The notes beneath the pieces were generated by a model. The model saw nothing but the letters and a program-made list of their open reading frames with translations. It did no database searches and was not told where the DNA came from. The position numbers and the translations under genes are program-made. A stretch of 64,000 bases of DNA from Opitutaceae bacterium (lineage in GTDB: Bacteria; Verrucomicrobiota; Verrucomicrobiia; Opitutales; Opitutaceae), in the NCBI GenBank assembly GCA_018402455.1, contig JAGYIG010000015.1, forward strand, positions 1-64,000. The letters are read 5' to 3'. Each line of letters starts with the position of its first letter. Positions within the stretch are counted from its first letter, which is position 1. Shown here piece by piece: positions 24,613-30,330 of the stretch.

Positions 24613-27240
24613 TCAGGCCTCGGGCTTGGGATCTTCGGTTGGGTCCGGTTCCGGCGTGTCGGCGGAGGTGTCGACATCGTCAGAAGTATCCGTGGATTCA
24701 CCGGTGGGAGTCTCGACCGGTATCGCTTCCGCATCGTCCGATGGTGTTTCCCCGGTTTCCCCGGCGGCGGCGGCATCGAGTTCCTCGTCGGATTCGACCA
24801 CCTTGGCCAGGGAGAGCAAGGTGTCGCCCTTTTTGCCCAGCGTGAGGAGTTTGACGCCCTTGGCGCCGCGGTTGGTTTCGCGGACGGTGTTGATGGGGCA
24901 GCGCACGCTTTGGCCCTTGGAAGTGAGCAGCATGATCTCGTCGGTATCTTTGACCCCCAGGGCGCCGACCAACGCGACCGAACCATCGTCGGGCAGGTTG
25001 ATGGCGGTGACGCCGGTGCCGCCGCGGTTGATGAGGCGGTAGTCTTCGAAGCGGGTGCGCACGCCGAGGCCGGCTTCACTCGCGACCAGAAACTTCTTCT
25101 CGTGGTCGACGACCTCGATGGCTTGGAGGTAGTCGCCTTCCCGTTTGAAGCGCATGCCGGTGACTCCGCTGGTGGCGCGACCGGTGGGGCGGAAGAGCAC
25201 CTCGCCGGTATCGGGATTTTTTTCGCGGAAGCGCACGGCCAGGCCCTGGTGGGAAACCAGAATGATCTCGTTGGAGCCATCGGTGAGCACACAACCGATG
25301 ACATCGTCGCCCTCGGCCAGGTTGATGCCGATGAGGCCGCTTTCCCGGGTGGCGTTGGTGTAGGCGGCGAGGGCGGTCTTTTTGATCTGGCCGGACTTGG
25401 TGGCCATGACGAGGTAGTGTTCTTCGTCGAAATCGGTGTGGGTGAGCATGGCGGCGATCTTTTCGCCCTCGTCGAGAGCGAGGAACGATTTGACCGACTT
25501 GCCCTTGGAGACCCGGGACCCCTCCGGAATCTGGTAAACCTTTTTGGCCAGGCACTGGCCATCGGTGGTGATGAACAGGATGTAGTCGTGCGTCTGGGCG
25601 GTGAAGAGATGCTCCACGAAGTCTTCCTCGTAGGTTTCGGTGCCGATGACGCCCTTGCCGCCGCGTTTTTGGGACCGGTAGTCGGCGACGCGGGTGCGTT
25701 TGATGAAGCCCAGGTGCGAAATGGTGATGACCATACCCTCGTTGGGGATGACGTCCTCCATGCGGAAGTCGCCGATGGCGTGGCTGATTTCGGATTTGCG
25801 GGGGGAGGCGTATTTCTCCCCGGCGGCAACCAACTCCTCCTTGATCACATCGAGCAAGAGGCGCTCGGAGGCGAGGATGGCGCGCAGGCCCTCAATGATC
25901 TCCATCAACTGGCGGTATTCCTCCTCGATTTTTTCGCGTTCGAGGCCGGTGAGTTGGTAGAGGCGCAGTTCGAGGATGGCATCGGTCTGTTTTTCCGACA
26001 GCGGATATTTCGCCATCAATTTTTCCTTGGCCTCGAGCCGGTTGGCGGATGCCCGGATGATTTTCACGAAGTCGTCCAGGTTATCGAGGGCGATCATGTA
26101 GCCCTCGAGGATGTGGGCGCGGGCTTCGGCCTTGCGCAGGCGGAACTGGGTGCGGCGGGTGACGACCTCGCGGCGATGCTCGATGTAGCAGTCGAGCAGC
26201 TCGCGGATGTTCATCTGCTTGGGCCGCTTCTGGTCGAGGGCCAGCAAAGTGACGCCGAAGGACGACTCCAAGGCCGTCTTCTTGTAGAGTTGATTGAGGA
26301 TGGGCTCGGCCTGTTCACCGCGCTTGAGCTCGATGACGATGCGGGTGTTTTCGTCGGACTCGTCCCGCAGGTCCCGGATTCCCTCGATGGATTTTTCCCC
26401 CACCAGCTCCGCGATCTTCAACACCAGATTGGCGCGGTTCACATTGTAGGGCAGTTCGGTGATGATGATCTGTTCGCCCCCGTTTTTCATTTCCTCGGCG
26501 TGGGCGCGGCCCCGGGTGCGGACGATGCCCTTGCCGGTGCGCAGGTAGGAGTCGATGCCGGCGGGGCCGCCGATCAGGCCGCCGGTGGGGAAGTCGGGTC
26601 CCCGGATGTGGGAGCACACCTCATCGAGGGAAATCTCCGGGTTGTCGATGATGGCGCAGGTGGCGGCGATGAGTTCGCCGAGATTGTGCGGGGGGATGTT
26701 GGTGGCCATGCCCACGGCGATACCGGTGGAGCCGTTCATCAAAAGGTTGGGCAGGGCGGACGGGAGCACGGTGGGCTCCGTGGTGGATTCCTTGTAGTTG
26801 GGGGCGAAGTCGACGGTGTCTTCCTCGATATCGGCGAGCAGGGTCTCGGCCAGGGCGGTGAGGCGGGCCTCGGTGTAACGGTAAGCCGCGGGCGGGTCCC
26901 CATCGACCGAGCCGAAGTTGCCCTGCGGGTCGATCATGGGGTAACGCATCACCCAGTTCTGGGCCATGCGCACGAGGGTGTCGTAGACGGACGAGTCACC
27001 ATGCGGGTGGTAGTTTTTGAGCACCTCGCCGACCACGCCGGCGCACTTGTCGAACGGGCGGTTGTGGAGGAGGCCCTCCCGCAGCATGGCATAAAGGATG
27101 CGGCGCTGGACGGGCTTGAGGCCGTCGCGGGCATCGGGTAGGGCCCGGGATACGATGACGGACATCGAATAGTCGATGTAGGCCGTCTGCATGATATCGG
27201 TGATATTGGCCGTAGTGAGTTTTTCGTTGGCAGTGAACAC
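24613..27240 (-). CDS. gyrA: DNA gyrase subunit A
   Basis: A full-length 875-residue GyrA. The N-terminal winged-helix/topoisomerase domain carries the catalytic tyrosine Y122 in AAYRYTEARL. The quinolone-determining region HPHGDSSVYD keeps S83 and D87 in E. coli numbering, so no classical resistance change is seen. The C-terminal beta-pinwheel contains a GyrA box, QKRGGKG near residue 530, which separates gyrase from topoisomerase IV. The tail is acidic and Thr/Pro/Asp-rich, as in many gyrases. With GyrB it introduces negative supercoils using ATP. It is the last gene of a minus-strand run gyrB, GxxExxY, gyrA, where the GxxExxY gene interrupts the common pair. A palindromic element follows the stop and may act as 3' end. 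Confidence 0.97.
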   Translation of the reverse strand: MFTANEKLTTANITDIMQTAYIDYSMSVIVSRALPDARDGLKPVQRRILYAMLREGLLHNRPFDKCAGVVGEVLKNYHPHGDSSVYDTLVRMAQNWVMRYPMIDPQGNFGSVDGDPPAAYRYTEARLTALAETLLADIEEDTVDFAPNYKESTTEPTVLPSALPNLLMNGSTGIAVGMATNIPPHNLGELIAATCAIIDNPEISLDEVCSHIRGPDFPTGGLIGGPAGIDSYLRTGKGIVRTRGRAHAEEMKNGGEQIIITELPYNVNRANLVLKIAELVGEKSIEGIRDLRDESDENTRIVIELKRGEQAEPILNQLYKKTALESSFGVTLLALDQKRPKQMNIRELLDCYIEHRREVVTRRTQFRLRKAEARAHILEGYMIALDNLDDFVKIIRASANRLEAKEKLMAKYPLSEKQTDAILELRLYQLTGLEREKIEEEYRQLMEIIEGLRAILASERLLLDVIKEELVAAGEKYASPRKSEISHAIGDFRMEDVIPNEGMVITISHLGFIKRTRVADYRSQKRGGKGVIGTETYEEDFVEHLFTAQTHDYILFITTDGQCLAKKVYQIPEGSRVSKGKSVKSFLALDEGEKIAAMLTHTDFDEEHYLVMATKSGQIKKTALAAYTNATRESGLIGINLAEGDDVIGCVLTDGSNEIILVSHQGLAVRFREKNPDTGEVLFRPTGRATSGVTGMRFKREGDYLQAIEVVDHEKKFLVASEAGLGVRTRFEDYRLINRGGTGVTAINLPDDGSVALVGALGVKDTDEIMLLTSKGQSVRCPINTVRETNRGAKGVKLLTLGKKGDTLLSLAKVVESDEELDAAAAGETGETPSDDAEAIPVETPTGESTDTSDDVDTSADTPEPDPTEDPKPEA

Positions 27241-27275
27241 GAGTAGGAAAAGTAGCGGGTAGGAAAGGGTTTTAA

Positions 27276-27314
27276 GCGCGAAGTCGCAAAGACGGCGAAG
27301 CGGACGCGAAGAGG
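27276..27314. repeat. GCGAAG/GCAAAG repeat flank, downstream side of GxxExxY
   Basis: A run of short degenerate repeats on the plus strand: GCGCGAAG, TCGCAAAG, ACGGCGAAG, then CGGACGCGAAGAGG. A similar run in the opposite orientation lies on the other side of the GxxExxY gene (27734-27764), so the gene sits between inverted flanks. Confidence 0.65.
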
Positions 27315-27315
27315 T

Positions 27316-27726
27316 TTAGGAACGGAGGTCGAGGTTCAGGACGCGGCTGATTCCGTTTTTAATAAGGGGAACATTAAAGTTGATGAGCAGCCCGAGCGGC
27401 AGCTGCAGAAGCTTGAGGTAGGTGGCGAGCTGAACCCGGTGAATGGGCTCGATTTGAGTGACTGCTTTGAGCTCAACGAGGAGCTTCGTATCCACGAGCA
27501 AGTCGATCCGATAGGCGTGGGGAATCTCGGTGTCCCGATAGACGAGCGGTAGCGATTTTTCGCGTTCAATCTGATGCCCCCGGGCCGAGAGTTCGATCGC
27601 CAGGCAATCCCGATAGGTGCTCTCCAGCATGCCGGGACCGAGGGCGCGATGAACGGCCAAAGCCGCATCCACCACCACTCCGGACAGGGTTTCCGTCTGG
27701 ACGGGAATGGCTACGGTTCCAGGCAT
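27316..27726 (-). CDS. GxxExxY protein (PD-(D/E)XK-like small protein)
   Basis: About 136 residues from the ATG at 27726, preceded by an AAGGTG ribosome-binding site. An alternative ATG at 27783 immediately follows the gyrB stop. The naming motif is GPGMLESTYRDCL (G-P-G-x-x-E-x-x-Y), and the continuing IELSARGHQIEREKSLPLVY, the YRIDLLVDTKLLVELKAV strand pair (acid and lysine placed as in a nuclease-like core), and the C-terminal GLLINFNVPLIKNGISRVL are all standard. Function is unknown; the fold is related to restriction-like nucleases. The gene is often found in many scattered copies in Verrucomicrobiota and Planctomycetota. Here it is placed within the gyrB-gyrA run and between inverted GCGAAG-type flanks, which suggests an inserted cassette. 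Confidence 0.9.
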   Translation of the reverse strand: MPGTVAIPVQTETLSGVVVDAALAVHRALGPGMLESTYRDCLAIELSARGHQIEREKSLPLVYRDTEIPHAYRIDLLVDTKLLVELKAVTQIEPIHRVQLATYLKLLQLPLGLLINFNVPLIKNGISRVLNLDLRS

Positions 27727-27733
27727 CTTGGCG

Positions 27734-27764
27734 TCACCTTTGCCCCCTTCGCGGCTTTGCGCTT
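27734..27764. repeat. GCGAAG/GCAAAG repeat flank, upstream side of GxxExxY
   Basis: On the minus strand this reads GAAGCGCAAAGC, CGCGAAGG, GGGCAAAGGTG. It is the inverted partner of the run at 27276-27314 and lies in the gap between the gyrB stop and the GxxExxY start codon, where it also supplies part of the ribosome-binding region. Confidence 0.6.
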
Positions 27765-27784: not shown

Positions 27785-29088
27785 TCAGATGTCGAGGTTG
27801 GAGACGTTGAGGGCGTTGTCTTCGATGAACTGACGGCGGGGCGGGACTTCGTCGCCCATGAGCAGGGTGAAGAGCTCGTCGGCCTTGGCGGCATCGGCGA
27901 TATCGACCTTGAGCAGCGCCGCTTGTTCGGGTCCACAGGTTTCTGAAAAAGCCGCTTGGGGTCATCACCAAGCCCAGCTGGATGGAAAAAGGCTCCTTGC
28001 GTCCGAGGGTGCGGATGTGGGTCGAGGATCCCATGGCGCCGAGCCCGCGGTGCTTTCCGTCTTTGGCCGGCGCGCTTGGTGACGACATAACGGGCCTCAT
28101 CCGTCGCGTGGAAGCGGTTGATTTCGAGCCCGGAGTCGGTTGATGGCGCGGAGGAGCTTGGTCATCCTGGTGGACTCAAAGATCTCATGGTGTGACGTGG
28201 CGGGGATAGCAAAGCGCCATTGGGTGGAAGGACGATGCCGGAGGAGGGGAAATGTTCTCTGGGCTGTCCCCAAGATCGGCGTCCACGCCCCGAAACCACG
28301 GGAAAACCCGCTCCGGGCGTGTTCCGTCGCGCAGGAAGACATGGACTCCCCGTTGCCCCCGCGAACTGGGCGATGTAGCGCGGCAGGTGATCAGGCTGTC
28401 CTTCTCAGGTTGGTCAAGGTATTCGGTGAGGGAGGCGCTGTAGTAAAGTCACCCTGGTAATCAGCCTTGAGGCGCCAGGCTTTCAATAATGCGATCGATC
28501 TGGGCCGAGGCGAAATGTGCGGTTGTCGCGCAGGCGGGGGGTGAGGGTGACGTCCCCGGAACCGAGTTCGAGCAGGCTACGGTTCAGCTGTTCGTCGCTG
28601 TCGACATACCGTTCGCGGCGCTTGCGTTTGATTTTGTAGAGGGGCGACAAGGATGTAGCACGCAGCTGCGCTTCGATCAGGCCCTCATCCGATTTGCATG
28701 GTAGAGAAAGGTCAGCAGCAGGGTGTGGATGTGGAGCCATCGACGTCCGCATCGGCCATGATGATGGGATCTTGTGGTAGCGGGCCTTGTCGATTCGCTG
28801 GAAGTCGCCGAGCGCTGTCGCCCCCGCCGATCCTGCGCCGATGGCGGTGATGAGGGTGCGGATTTCCTCGTTGGAGAGCAACTGTCGAGACGCAGCCCCG
28901 GAGCTGATGAGCTTACCGCGCAGGGGGTGGGAGGGCATGGCCTGAAGGGCGGTCCCACCGGTTTGGATGGAGCGCCGGCGGAACTTCGCCCTCCACGATG
29001 TAGGGATTCGTGACTGACGGTCGCGTTCGGAAGAAGTCAAGAGTTTGCCCGGCAGACCGCCGCTGGTGAGGGCGCCCTTGCGGATGGT
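27785..29088 (-). pseudogene. gyrB: Damaged 3' half of gyrB
   Basis: This stretch encodes recognisable GyrB sequence in a mixture of frames. Directly after the stop at 29089 the same frame reads TIRKGALTSGGLPGKL, the normal continuation. Then LSNEEIRTLITAIGAG, DKARYHKI, LLLTFLYH and SPLYKIKRK follow as islands of TOPRIM-domain sequence, with frame changes between them. The true C-terminus FTLLMGDEVPPRRQFIEDN appears near the end and reaches a TGA at 27785-27787. Bases are mostly missing, not replaced, relative to what the family requires, for example around the EGDSAGG motif. Gyrase is essential, so either the assembled sequence is wrong here or a second intact copy exists. See the companion entry for the N-terminal part. 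Confidence 0.85.
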
Positions 29089-30330
29089 TTACCGAGCCTT
29101 GCGGGCGGCCTCCCGGGCGCGGGCGGCGTTGAGGGCTTTGTCGACGATGCGTTTGGCCACCCGAGGGTTGGTCTCGAAGTATTGCATCAAGCCCTCGTAG
29201 GCCGAGGAGCTGACGATGCCCTCAACCTCGGGGGAGAGCAGTTTGACCTTGGTCTGCGACTCGAATTTGGGGTCCGAGTGTTTGATTGAGATGACGGCGG
29301 AAAGCCCCTCCCGCACATCGTCGCCGGTGATTTGCGGATCCTTGTCCTTGAGCAGTTTGTTGGCGCGGGAGAACTGATTGATCGCGCGCGTCAGGGCCCC
29401 CCGGAAGCCGGACAAGTGGGTGCCGCCGTCGGGGTTATGGATGGTATTGGTGTAGCAGAGGACCTGGTCGTTGTAGGACTCGTTATACTGCAGCACCAAT
29501 TCGAGGTGCACCTCGTTGGGCTTATCGTCGATCAACACCTCGGTGACTTTGGAAACGCGGACGGGATCGGGGTGCAGCGGTTGTTTGCCGGTGTTGATCT
29601 GGCGCACAAACTCCACCACGCCGTCCTGATAGTAGTAGGAGATGGGTTTGGGCGCGGCCGGGCGTTCGTCGACGAAATTGATTTCCAAGCCGGAGTTGAG
29701 GAAAGCGAGTTCGCGCAGCCGTTGGGCGATGCGGTCCGCCACGAACACGGTGGTTTCGCGGAAAATCTCGGAGTCGGGTTTGAAGGTGACGTAGGTGCCG
29801 GTGCCTCGGGCGTTACCGATGACTTCGAGCTGCTTGATGGTCTTGCCCTGTTCAAATTTCATGTGGTGGACCTTCCCGTCGCGGGACACCTCCACTTCGA
29901 ACCATTCGGAAACGGCGTTCACACACTTGGCGCCGACCCCGTGGGTGCCGCCGGAGAATTTGTAGCCTCCCTGACCGTATTTACCACCGGAGTGAAGCGT
30001 GGTGAGCACCATCTCGACCCCGGGGATGCCATACTTGGGGTGGACGTCCACGGGAATGCCGCGACCGTCGTCCCGGATGGAGATCGAACCATCGACATGG
30101 ATGGCGACATCAATCTTTTGGCAATGGCCGGCAAGATGCTCATCGACGGAGTTGTCGAGCACCTCGGATACGCAGTGATGGAGGGCCCGTTCGTCGGTGC
30201 CACCGATATACATGCCCGGCTTTTTCCGGACGGCCTCAAGGCCTTCGAGTTTGCCGAGCTGGGAGGCATCGTAGTCGCCCAGAATGGCTTTATTGAGAGG
30301 AGGAGGAACCGGATCAGGTAGGTCGGACAT
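29089..30330 (-). CDS. gyrB: DNA gyrase subunit B, N-terminal part
   Basis: The intact first 413 residues of GyrB. The GHKL ATPase domain is complete: EAVRKKPGMYIGG, VSEVLDNSVDEHLAGH (Asn/Glu of the ATP site), IRDDGRGIPVDVHPKYG, LHSGGKYGQGGYKFSGGTHGVG. The transducer domain follows with the QTKVKLLSPEVEG lysine loop. The frame then ends at a TAA (29089-29091), where the family continues with R-x-T-x-R-K; a single base change from a sense codon such as GAA would give this stop. The start ATG at 30330 leads to MSDLPDPVPPPLNKA, then AILGDYDASQLGKLEGLEAV. It is divergent from the Rrf2 gene. A truncated product would bind ATP but lack the TOPRIM DNA-cleavage metal site, so it would not be a working gyrase subunit. 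Confidence 0.93.
   Translation of the reverse strand: MSDLPDPVPPPLNKAILGDYDASQLGKLEGLEAVRKKPGMYIGGTDERALHHCVSEVLDNSVDEHLAGHCQKIDVAIHVDGSISIRDDGRGIPVDVHPKYGIPGVEMVLTTLHSGGKYGQGGYKFSGGTHGVGAKCVNAVSEWFEVEVSRDGKVHHMKFEQGKTIKQLEVIGNARGTGTYVTFKPDSEIFRETTVFVADRIAQRLRELAFLNSGLEINFVDERPAAPKPISYYYQDGVVEFVRQINTGKQPLHPDPVRVSKVTEVLIDDKPNEVHLELVLQYNESYNDQVLCYTNTIHNPDGGTHLSGFRGALTRAINQFSRANKLLKDKDPQITGDDVREGLSAVISIKHSDPKFESQTKVKLLSPEVEGIVSSSAYEGLMQYFETNPRVAKRIVDKALNAARAREAARKAR

Follow-up and report, generated by a model that had tools for sequence, protein, structure and literature searches.

The described systems closest to the locus reported here are the REP/RAYT elements (REPtrons, REPINs), the intervening sequences of 23S rRNA genes, and the MITEs with their autonomous partners. 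In REPtrons, a single gene coding for a Y1 HUH transposase is framed by inverted short repeats built on one palindrome; many gene-less inverted doublets occur, and the elements are intergenic with no clear target duplication. The 23S rRNA intervening sequences carry a short ORF between inverted ends, in a transcribed region that tolerates a hairpin; the S23/four-helix-bundle family occurs in them, and RNase III cuts their stem (PMC4990558). MITEs and their partners possess inverted ends in ORF-bearing and ORF-less versions. In addition, arrays of the TAACTGA heptamer were described in Beggiatoaceae and cyanobacteria, where they are intergenic, lie mostly just upstream of start codons and consist of direct repeats with one inverted case (MacGregor 2015, PMC4679880).

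The present locus, a small gene framed by inverted repeat arrays between gyrB and gyrA, shares some of the above features of the first three systems, which serve as works-like comparisons; each of them fails at least one defining feature. As in REPtrons, inverted repeats were found that frame a gene and also occur gene-less, but the protein is nuclease-like (PD-(D/E)XK) and each side carries several degenerate 7-nt units. Furthermore, unlike in REPtrons, the unit changes with the protein subfamily and the sites lie directly behind operon stop codons. In contrast to the 23S rRNA intervening sequences, the cassette is located between protein genes of an operon (here gyrB-gyrA) and not in a 23S rRNA gene, its ORF belongs to the unrelated nuclease family PF13366 and not to S23/four-helix-bundle (sister family TIGR02436), its ends are repeat arrays, and a signature of RNA pairing is absent. 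Terminal inverted repeats are present as in MITEs and DDE transposons, but no target duplication was found, the ORF-less copies vary in their loop and even in their unit, and no known transposase is involved. The TAACTGA arrays are likewise intergenic arrays of a 7-nt unit scattered over distant phyla; they are not linked in PMC4679880 to GxxExxY or four-helix-bundle genes.

The initial annotation had supposed that the cassette was undescribed, and a description of GxxExxY-array cassettes was indeed absent from the open-access full text, searched by family name, accessions and array sequences, subscription papers being outside this coverage. The GxxExxY family is common among bacteria, occurs in some archaea, and has no known role.

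The gyrB-gyrA cassette and its protein

The window, i.e. the whole stretch of 64,000 nucleotides that was analysed, carries the GxxExxY gene between the gyrB stop codon and the gyrA start codon, transcribed in the same direction as both (Table 1). The interruption of gyrB-gyrA on one strand, which had been noted from the letters alone, was thus found as described.

Table 1. Features of the gyrB-gyrA junction in the window (arm boundaries are accurate to within a few bases)
Feature	Position	Strand	Remarks
gyrB stop codon	27785-27787	-	read from sequence; 20 nt before the upstream arm
Upstream arm	27726-27764	-	39 nt; sense AAGCGCAAAGCCGCGAAGGGGGCAAAGGTGACGCCAAGA; four degenerate units GCGCAAAG / CCGCGAAG / GGGGCAAAG / GTGACGCCAAG
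Ribosome-binding stretch AAAGGTG of the GxxExxY gene	27735-27741	-	within the upstream arm; read from sequence
GxxExxY / PDDEXK_3 gene	27316-27726	-	136 aa; start ATG 27726-27724; stop TAA 27318-27316
Downstream arm	27274-27312	+	39 nt; inverted units GCGCGAAG TCGCAAAG ACGGCGAAG CGGACGCGAAG
Possible remnant of an earlier arm of AGTAGCG type (four-helix-bundle class)	27241-27263	+	GAGTAGGAAAAGTAGCGGGTAGG; between cassette and gyrA
gyrA start codon GTG	27238-27240	-	

When analysed by profile search, the window ORF was assigned to PF13366 (PDDEXK_3; E=2.8e-39, 134.6 bits against a cut-off of 22), the sole family over cut-off, so that a Y1 HUH transposase of the REPtron kind was not found; the corresponding GxxExxY profile is TIGR04256 (E=4.4e-40, 136.7 bits against a cut-off of 35). 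An AlphaFold2 model of the protein (pLDDT 93.9, pTM 0.84) showed a minimal PD-(D/E)XK domain. In a 36-sequence alignment, the core residues E35, D75, E85 and K87 and the RecB-type Q99xxxY103 motif were invariant or nearly so. The top structural match of the model was the Cas4-family nuclease SSO0001 (4ic1; Z 9.4, rmsd 4.4, 100 residues), a match that stands little above the level that the alignment tool rates as middling. The Holliday-junction resolvase Hjc was also matched (Z 7.4); as the tool itself warns that Z values below 8 are common, only the superfamily assignment is safe. Judged from the model, its PDB matches and the conserved residues, the protein belongs to the PD-(D/E)XK superfamily, with a restriction-endonuclease-like fold and a D + ExK core, which agrees with the nuclease-like fold that had been expected. 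It shares with Cas4/RecB-type nucleases the fold and the catalytic order E...D...ExK...QxxxY, but it is much smaller, no cas genes are adjacent to it in the operon, and it possesses a single cysteine in place of the four of the Cas4 Fe-S cluster, and hence no such cluster.

The arms are composed of GCRAAG-type units (GCGAAG/GCAAAG; for example GCGCAAAG, CCGCGAAG, GGGGCAAAG and GACGCCAAG), and the reverse complement of the downstream arm, AAGCGCGAAGTCGCAAAGACGGCGAAGCGGACGCGAAGA on the strand of the gene, contains units of like kind. The arm-to-arm score was 33, whereas 20,000 windows of identical geometry taken from the genome gave at most 32. With the flanks trimmed to 100 nt, the arm score was 31 and three control windows scored at least 30. 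Degenerate GCGAAG/GCAAAG runs in opposite orientation had been proposed to flank the gene, one of them supplying the ribosome-binding region; both proposals hold at the level of these controls and of the AAAGGTG stretch.

The terminal sequence TTTAAGCGCGAAGTCGCAAAG of the downstream arm was found in 16 copies in the genome (at most 2 mismatches), against 0 for the reversed control pattern, and some of these copies reside within dispersed composite repeats that also contain AGTAGCG arrays. Such multi-copy composite repeats (L005-L011; G000 contigs C16, C24 and C66, G000 being the genome of the window) join a GCGAAG array with an AGTAGCG array and with a stretch of GCCGTCAGCCTG type, the spacing being 113-147 nt in places. 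Separately, near-identical REP-like palindromes GTCGGGCGTAAAGCCCGACCCAC were seen in several copies in a 400-kb sample of G003 (L357, L362, L369 and L371).

The possible AGTAGCG-type relic next to gyrA is so read for its likeness to arms found at gyrB-gyrA in the congeners G002, G004 and G005. A threshold scan of the whole 64-kb window (36 points) gave no second element of this kind.

The 3' half of gyrB (27910-29090) showed about 80 small indels over 1.4 kb relative to a close relative, against 8 in gyrA over an equal length. These are most likely sequencing or assembly errors of the draft genome, and the cassette is intact despite the broken gyrB nearby.

Inverted arrays at other loci and their match with the protein

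The genome of the window contains three PF13366 genes, and all of them are framed by inverted arrays, of GCGAAG/GCAAAG type at gyrB-gyrA, of CACAGAG type at gatA-gatB and of CACGAAT type between two aldehyde dehydrogenase genes. As the unit differs from cassette to cassette, a search for a single fixed flank would have overlooked the generality of the arrangement. In the set from the taxonomic family of the window, made of best family hits of which some are orthologous and hence not independent, 54 of 69 GxxExxY loci had arms that scored above the 99th percentile of control windows drawn within the respective locus (median 41 against 16); cassettes that share one site, such as gatA-gatB and leuB-alaS, are partly inherited and inflate the counts.

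The same arm test was passed by 54 of the 77 GxxExxY loci usable among 80 from named genomes of other taxa, archaea included (Verrucomicrobiota, Chloroflexota, Planctomycetota, Acidobacteriota, Pseudomonadota, Bacteroidota, Cyanobacteriota, Chlamydiota, Methanosarcinales and others). These cross-phylum loci were found with a profile built on a five-member alignment, and the set is thus biased towards the GPGLL subfamily. Many of the genomes are metagenome-assembled, and individual assignments may therefore be in error, but the overall pattern does not hang on any one of them. Genome-wide counts rest on searches and on 400-kb samples. About a quarter of the GxxExxY loci lack detectable arms. 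The framing of GxxExxY genes by inverted arrays, for which a comparison of loci had been proposed as a check, was confirmed as real and general.

Three results go beyond the initial annotation: the unit differs from cassette to cassette, it follows the protein subfamily, and an unrelated second family shares the layout. For pairs of GxxExxY cassettes, unit similarity correlated with protein similarity (r=0.60 for all pairs, 0.54 below 70% identity, 0.46 below 55%), and none of 2000 permutations gave as high a value; below 45% protein identity the correlation was weak (r=0.11). The seventh base of the unit is G in the case of GPGLL-type proteins and A or T in the case of GxGF/Y-type proteins. 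Within the family, the counts of G against A/T were 34:0 for the former and 1:18 for the latter (p=3e-13), and in other phyla 45:2 and 0:6 (p=1e-6), the last figure covering the only six GxGF/Y cases with arrays from other phyla. In agreement with the rule, CACGAAA-like units flank the gene of a Planctomycetaceae protein that shares 64% identity with a CACGAAA-type protein.

A part of this match is due to arms and gene being inherited together. Its persistence across phyla suggests, at the level of sequence comparison, that the array is recognized by the protein; the match could also reflect joint inheritance instead of recognition.

At gyrB-gyrA, some relatives hold a four-helix-bundle gene (S23/IVP-like, TIGR02436) in place of GxxExxY. 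Inverted arrays above the 99th percentile frame 42 of 67 such genes in the family, 16 of 24 in the rest of the phylum and 15 of 26 in other phyla, and here also unit and protein are correlated (r=0.52 below 70% identity). The two array classes are distinct and unmixed. At least two C[AG]C..A motifs per arm were present in 50 of 57 GxxExxY cassettes and in none of 42 four-helix-bundle cassettes, and the dominant array period was 8-10 nt in the former against 7 nt in the latter (39 of 42). Furthermore, a 4-mer classifier assigned 92 of 99 cases to the correct class when near-identical training items were excluded. In the genome of the window itself, a four-helix-bundle gene with AGTAGCG arrays was seen at pheS-pheT (L163, G000:C13:19466-21174). 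Since the four-helix-bundle cassettes have the same layout without a nuclease, the nuclease cannot be the shared motor.

Insertion sites, empty sites and ORF-less hairpins

In order to describe the sites, the strand of the neighbouring genes was called by codon usage. Both neighbours were co-directional with the cassette in 45 of 57 GxxExxY and 40 of 42 four-helix-bundle cases, against 772 of 2400 random windows (32%). In most cassettes, no more than about 23 nt separate the upstream stop codon from the start of the left arm. The host junctions, named by the encoded proteins, include gyrB-gyrA, gatA-gatB, pheS-pheT and leuB-alaS.

If the gene were a constant part of gyrB-gyrA, it should be found there in relatives. 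Among 29 readable junctions in 30 genomes, GxxExxY was present only at that of the window; one further genome, G014 (L141), also has GxxExxY there. The other junctions include four-helix-bundle cassettes in five genomes (G002, G008, G024, G034 and G036), ORF-less inverted arrays (for example in G004, G005, G010, G020 and G028) and short empty gaps (for example in G006, G022, G025 and G035). As a separate observation, the gyrB-gyrA junctions of G001, G003 and G012 (L016, L017 and L036) carry toxin-antitoxin-like gene pairs, by eye of AbrB/PIN and HicAB type.

Within the genus of the window, the gatA-gatB junction is occupied by the CACAGAG cassette in G000, by AGTAGCG hairpins in G002-G006 and by a CACGAAA hairpin in G001. 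In G014 only 29 nt separate the gatA stop codon from the first conserved gatB motif. Clean empty sites, the search for which had been suggested as a check, were found in congeners. When the flanks of the cassettes of G096 and G122 were joined, they matched uninterrupted sequence in congeners (G063 and G117, and G100), and the match in G104 spans gatA-gatB likewise without interruption. At these cassette places, G117, G120, G070 and G066 show short ORF-less insertions, several of which are hairpins. In several AGTAGCG hairpins, the start region of the four-helix-bundle ORF, GAGCAT(G), is still present.

Direct matches outside the arms were found in 1 of 43 cases, which is the background level, the arm boundaries being uncertain by a few bases; the target-site duplication of MITEs and DDE transposons was thus rejected. 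Neither polymorphism between strains nor an excision product was seen; as the genomes represent one per species, recent movement is invisible at this sampling. The repeated gain and loss could also stem from horizontal exchange through homologous recombination.

Cassette, RNA element or regulated gene

The reading that we prefer, with our confidence evenly poised, is that the locus is one of a widespread group of small intercistronic cassettes, made of a protein and its cognate ends and gained or lost as one piece, which would probably be selfish mobile elements. Each cassette has a short array on its left, a single ORF coding for a minimal PD-(D/E)XK (Cas4/RecB-like) nuclease and an inverted array on its right, and array and protein are a matched pair. 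The protein would bind or cut its own array, probably in the form of a hairpin or cruciform made by the inverted arms, and the nick or cut would start repair or replication by which the cassette is copied into new operon junctions. Expression would depend on read-through of the host operon and on the ribosome-binding site of the left arm; because the cassette would have no promoter of its own and would bring its own ribosome-binding site, operon junctions would be tolerated as sites. The homogeneity of the arrays may be kept through slippage and arm-to-arm correction, and the ORF-less hairpins may be internally deleted, MITE-like relics.

Of the earlier suggestion of a mobile cassette with recognizable ends, the ends stand, in view of the arrays at most loci and the clean empty sites; mobility is putative. 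We infer recognition, cleavage and transposition, the cassettes shown comprising no near-identical copies at different sites.

The main rival, which we regard as unlikely, is an element acting at the level of RNA. By pairing in the transcript, the inverted arms would enclose the ORF in a stem, in the manner of 23S rRNA intervening sequences; this stem would tune processing or stability between the operon genes, the protein would autoregulate its translation through the arm that holds the ribosome-binding site, and spread would be secondary. The sense-strand position of the cassettes between co-directional genes, the ribosome-binding site within the arm and the prevailing single orientation of the ORF-less hairpins at operon junctions (18 against 2) all point in this direction, as does the four-helix-bundle sister family, which is that of the 23S rRNA intervening sequences (PMC4990558). 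However, arm mismatches in the family were not biased towards G.U, neither for GxxExxY (87 G.U against 129 A.C) nor for four-helix-bundle cassettes (45 against 73), and the same was true of ORF-less hairpins (13 against 37) and of other phyla (44 against 52). Selection for an RNA hairpin was rejected because G.U did not exceed A.C in any set. Furthermore, the RNA fold of the whole element was not unusually stable (z -1.5), although the arms pair in the predicted structure, and the protein core is of DNA-nuclease type. A search of six loci against Rfam gave no match over the gathering score. An excess of A.C mismatches, as counted on the sense strand (G.T on the opposite one), was seen in the home family; in other phyla this bias is weak and falls short of significance.

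We consider it improbable that the gene is a non-mobile autoregulated one, whose arrays would be operators (iterons) of its protein and whose presence or absence would result from ordinary horizontal transfer by flanking homology and from gene loss. The agreement of unit and subfamily is what is expected of a regulator and its sites, and several cassettes stay at one site across genera. Nevertheless, arrays without an ORF persist both at the same junctions and at other places, operators need neither strictly inverted arms flanking the gene nor a position behind the upstream stop codon, and the protein has the conserved core of a nuclease.

A Cas4-like defence nuclease amid incidental repeats is very improbable in spite of the Cas4-like fold and weak PADLOC matches to Cas4 (E 4.5e-4 and 1.5e-3), as the arrays are anything but incidental, the cassettes occupy junctions of housekeeping operons and not defence islands, the protein family gave zero matches in PHROGs and in a phage collection, and plasmids rarely carry the gene (8 of 72,556 records). 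A phage origin was rejected on the same absence of matches in both collections.

Beyond the cassette itself, we tentatively put forward a mobile element of a new kind that Bacteria and Archaea would share. Its ends would be inverted iteron-like arrays written in a protein-specific code; two small unrelated proteins, a Cas4-like nuclease and an S23/Avd-like four-helix bundle, would each have given rise to such elements with their own repeat class. The elements would enter transcribed operon junctions and leave no target duplication, possibly via a folded single strand, and the 23S rRNA intervening sequences would be their best-known special case.

The operon junction right behind a stop codon emerges as a place where such cassettes land repeatedly. 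Through the parallel with the S23 four-helix bundle, rRNA intervening sequences would come under one heading with a large family of orphan nucleases and with many intergenic repeats of heptamers and nonamers that lack an explanation. As the gene and its cognate arrays can be read from the sequence alone, this orphan family becomes a testable protein-DNA pair.
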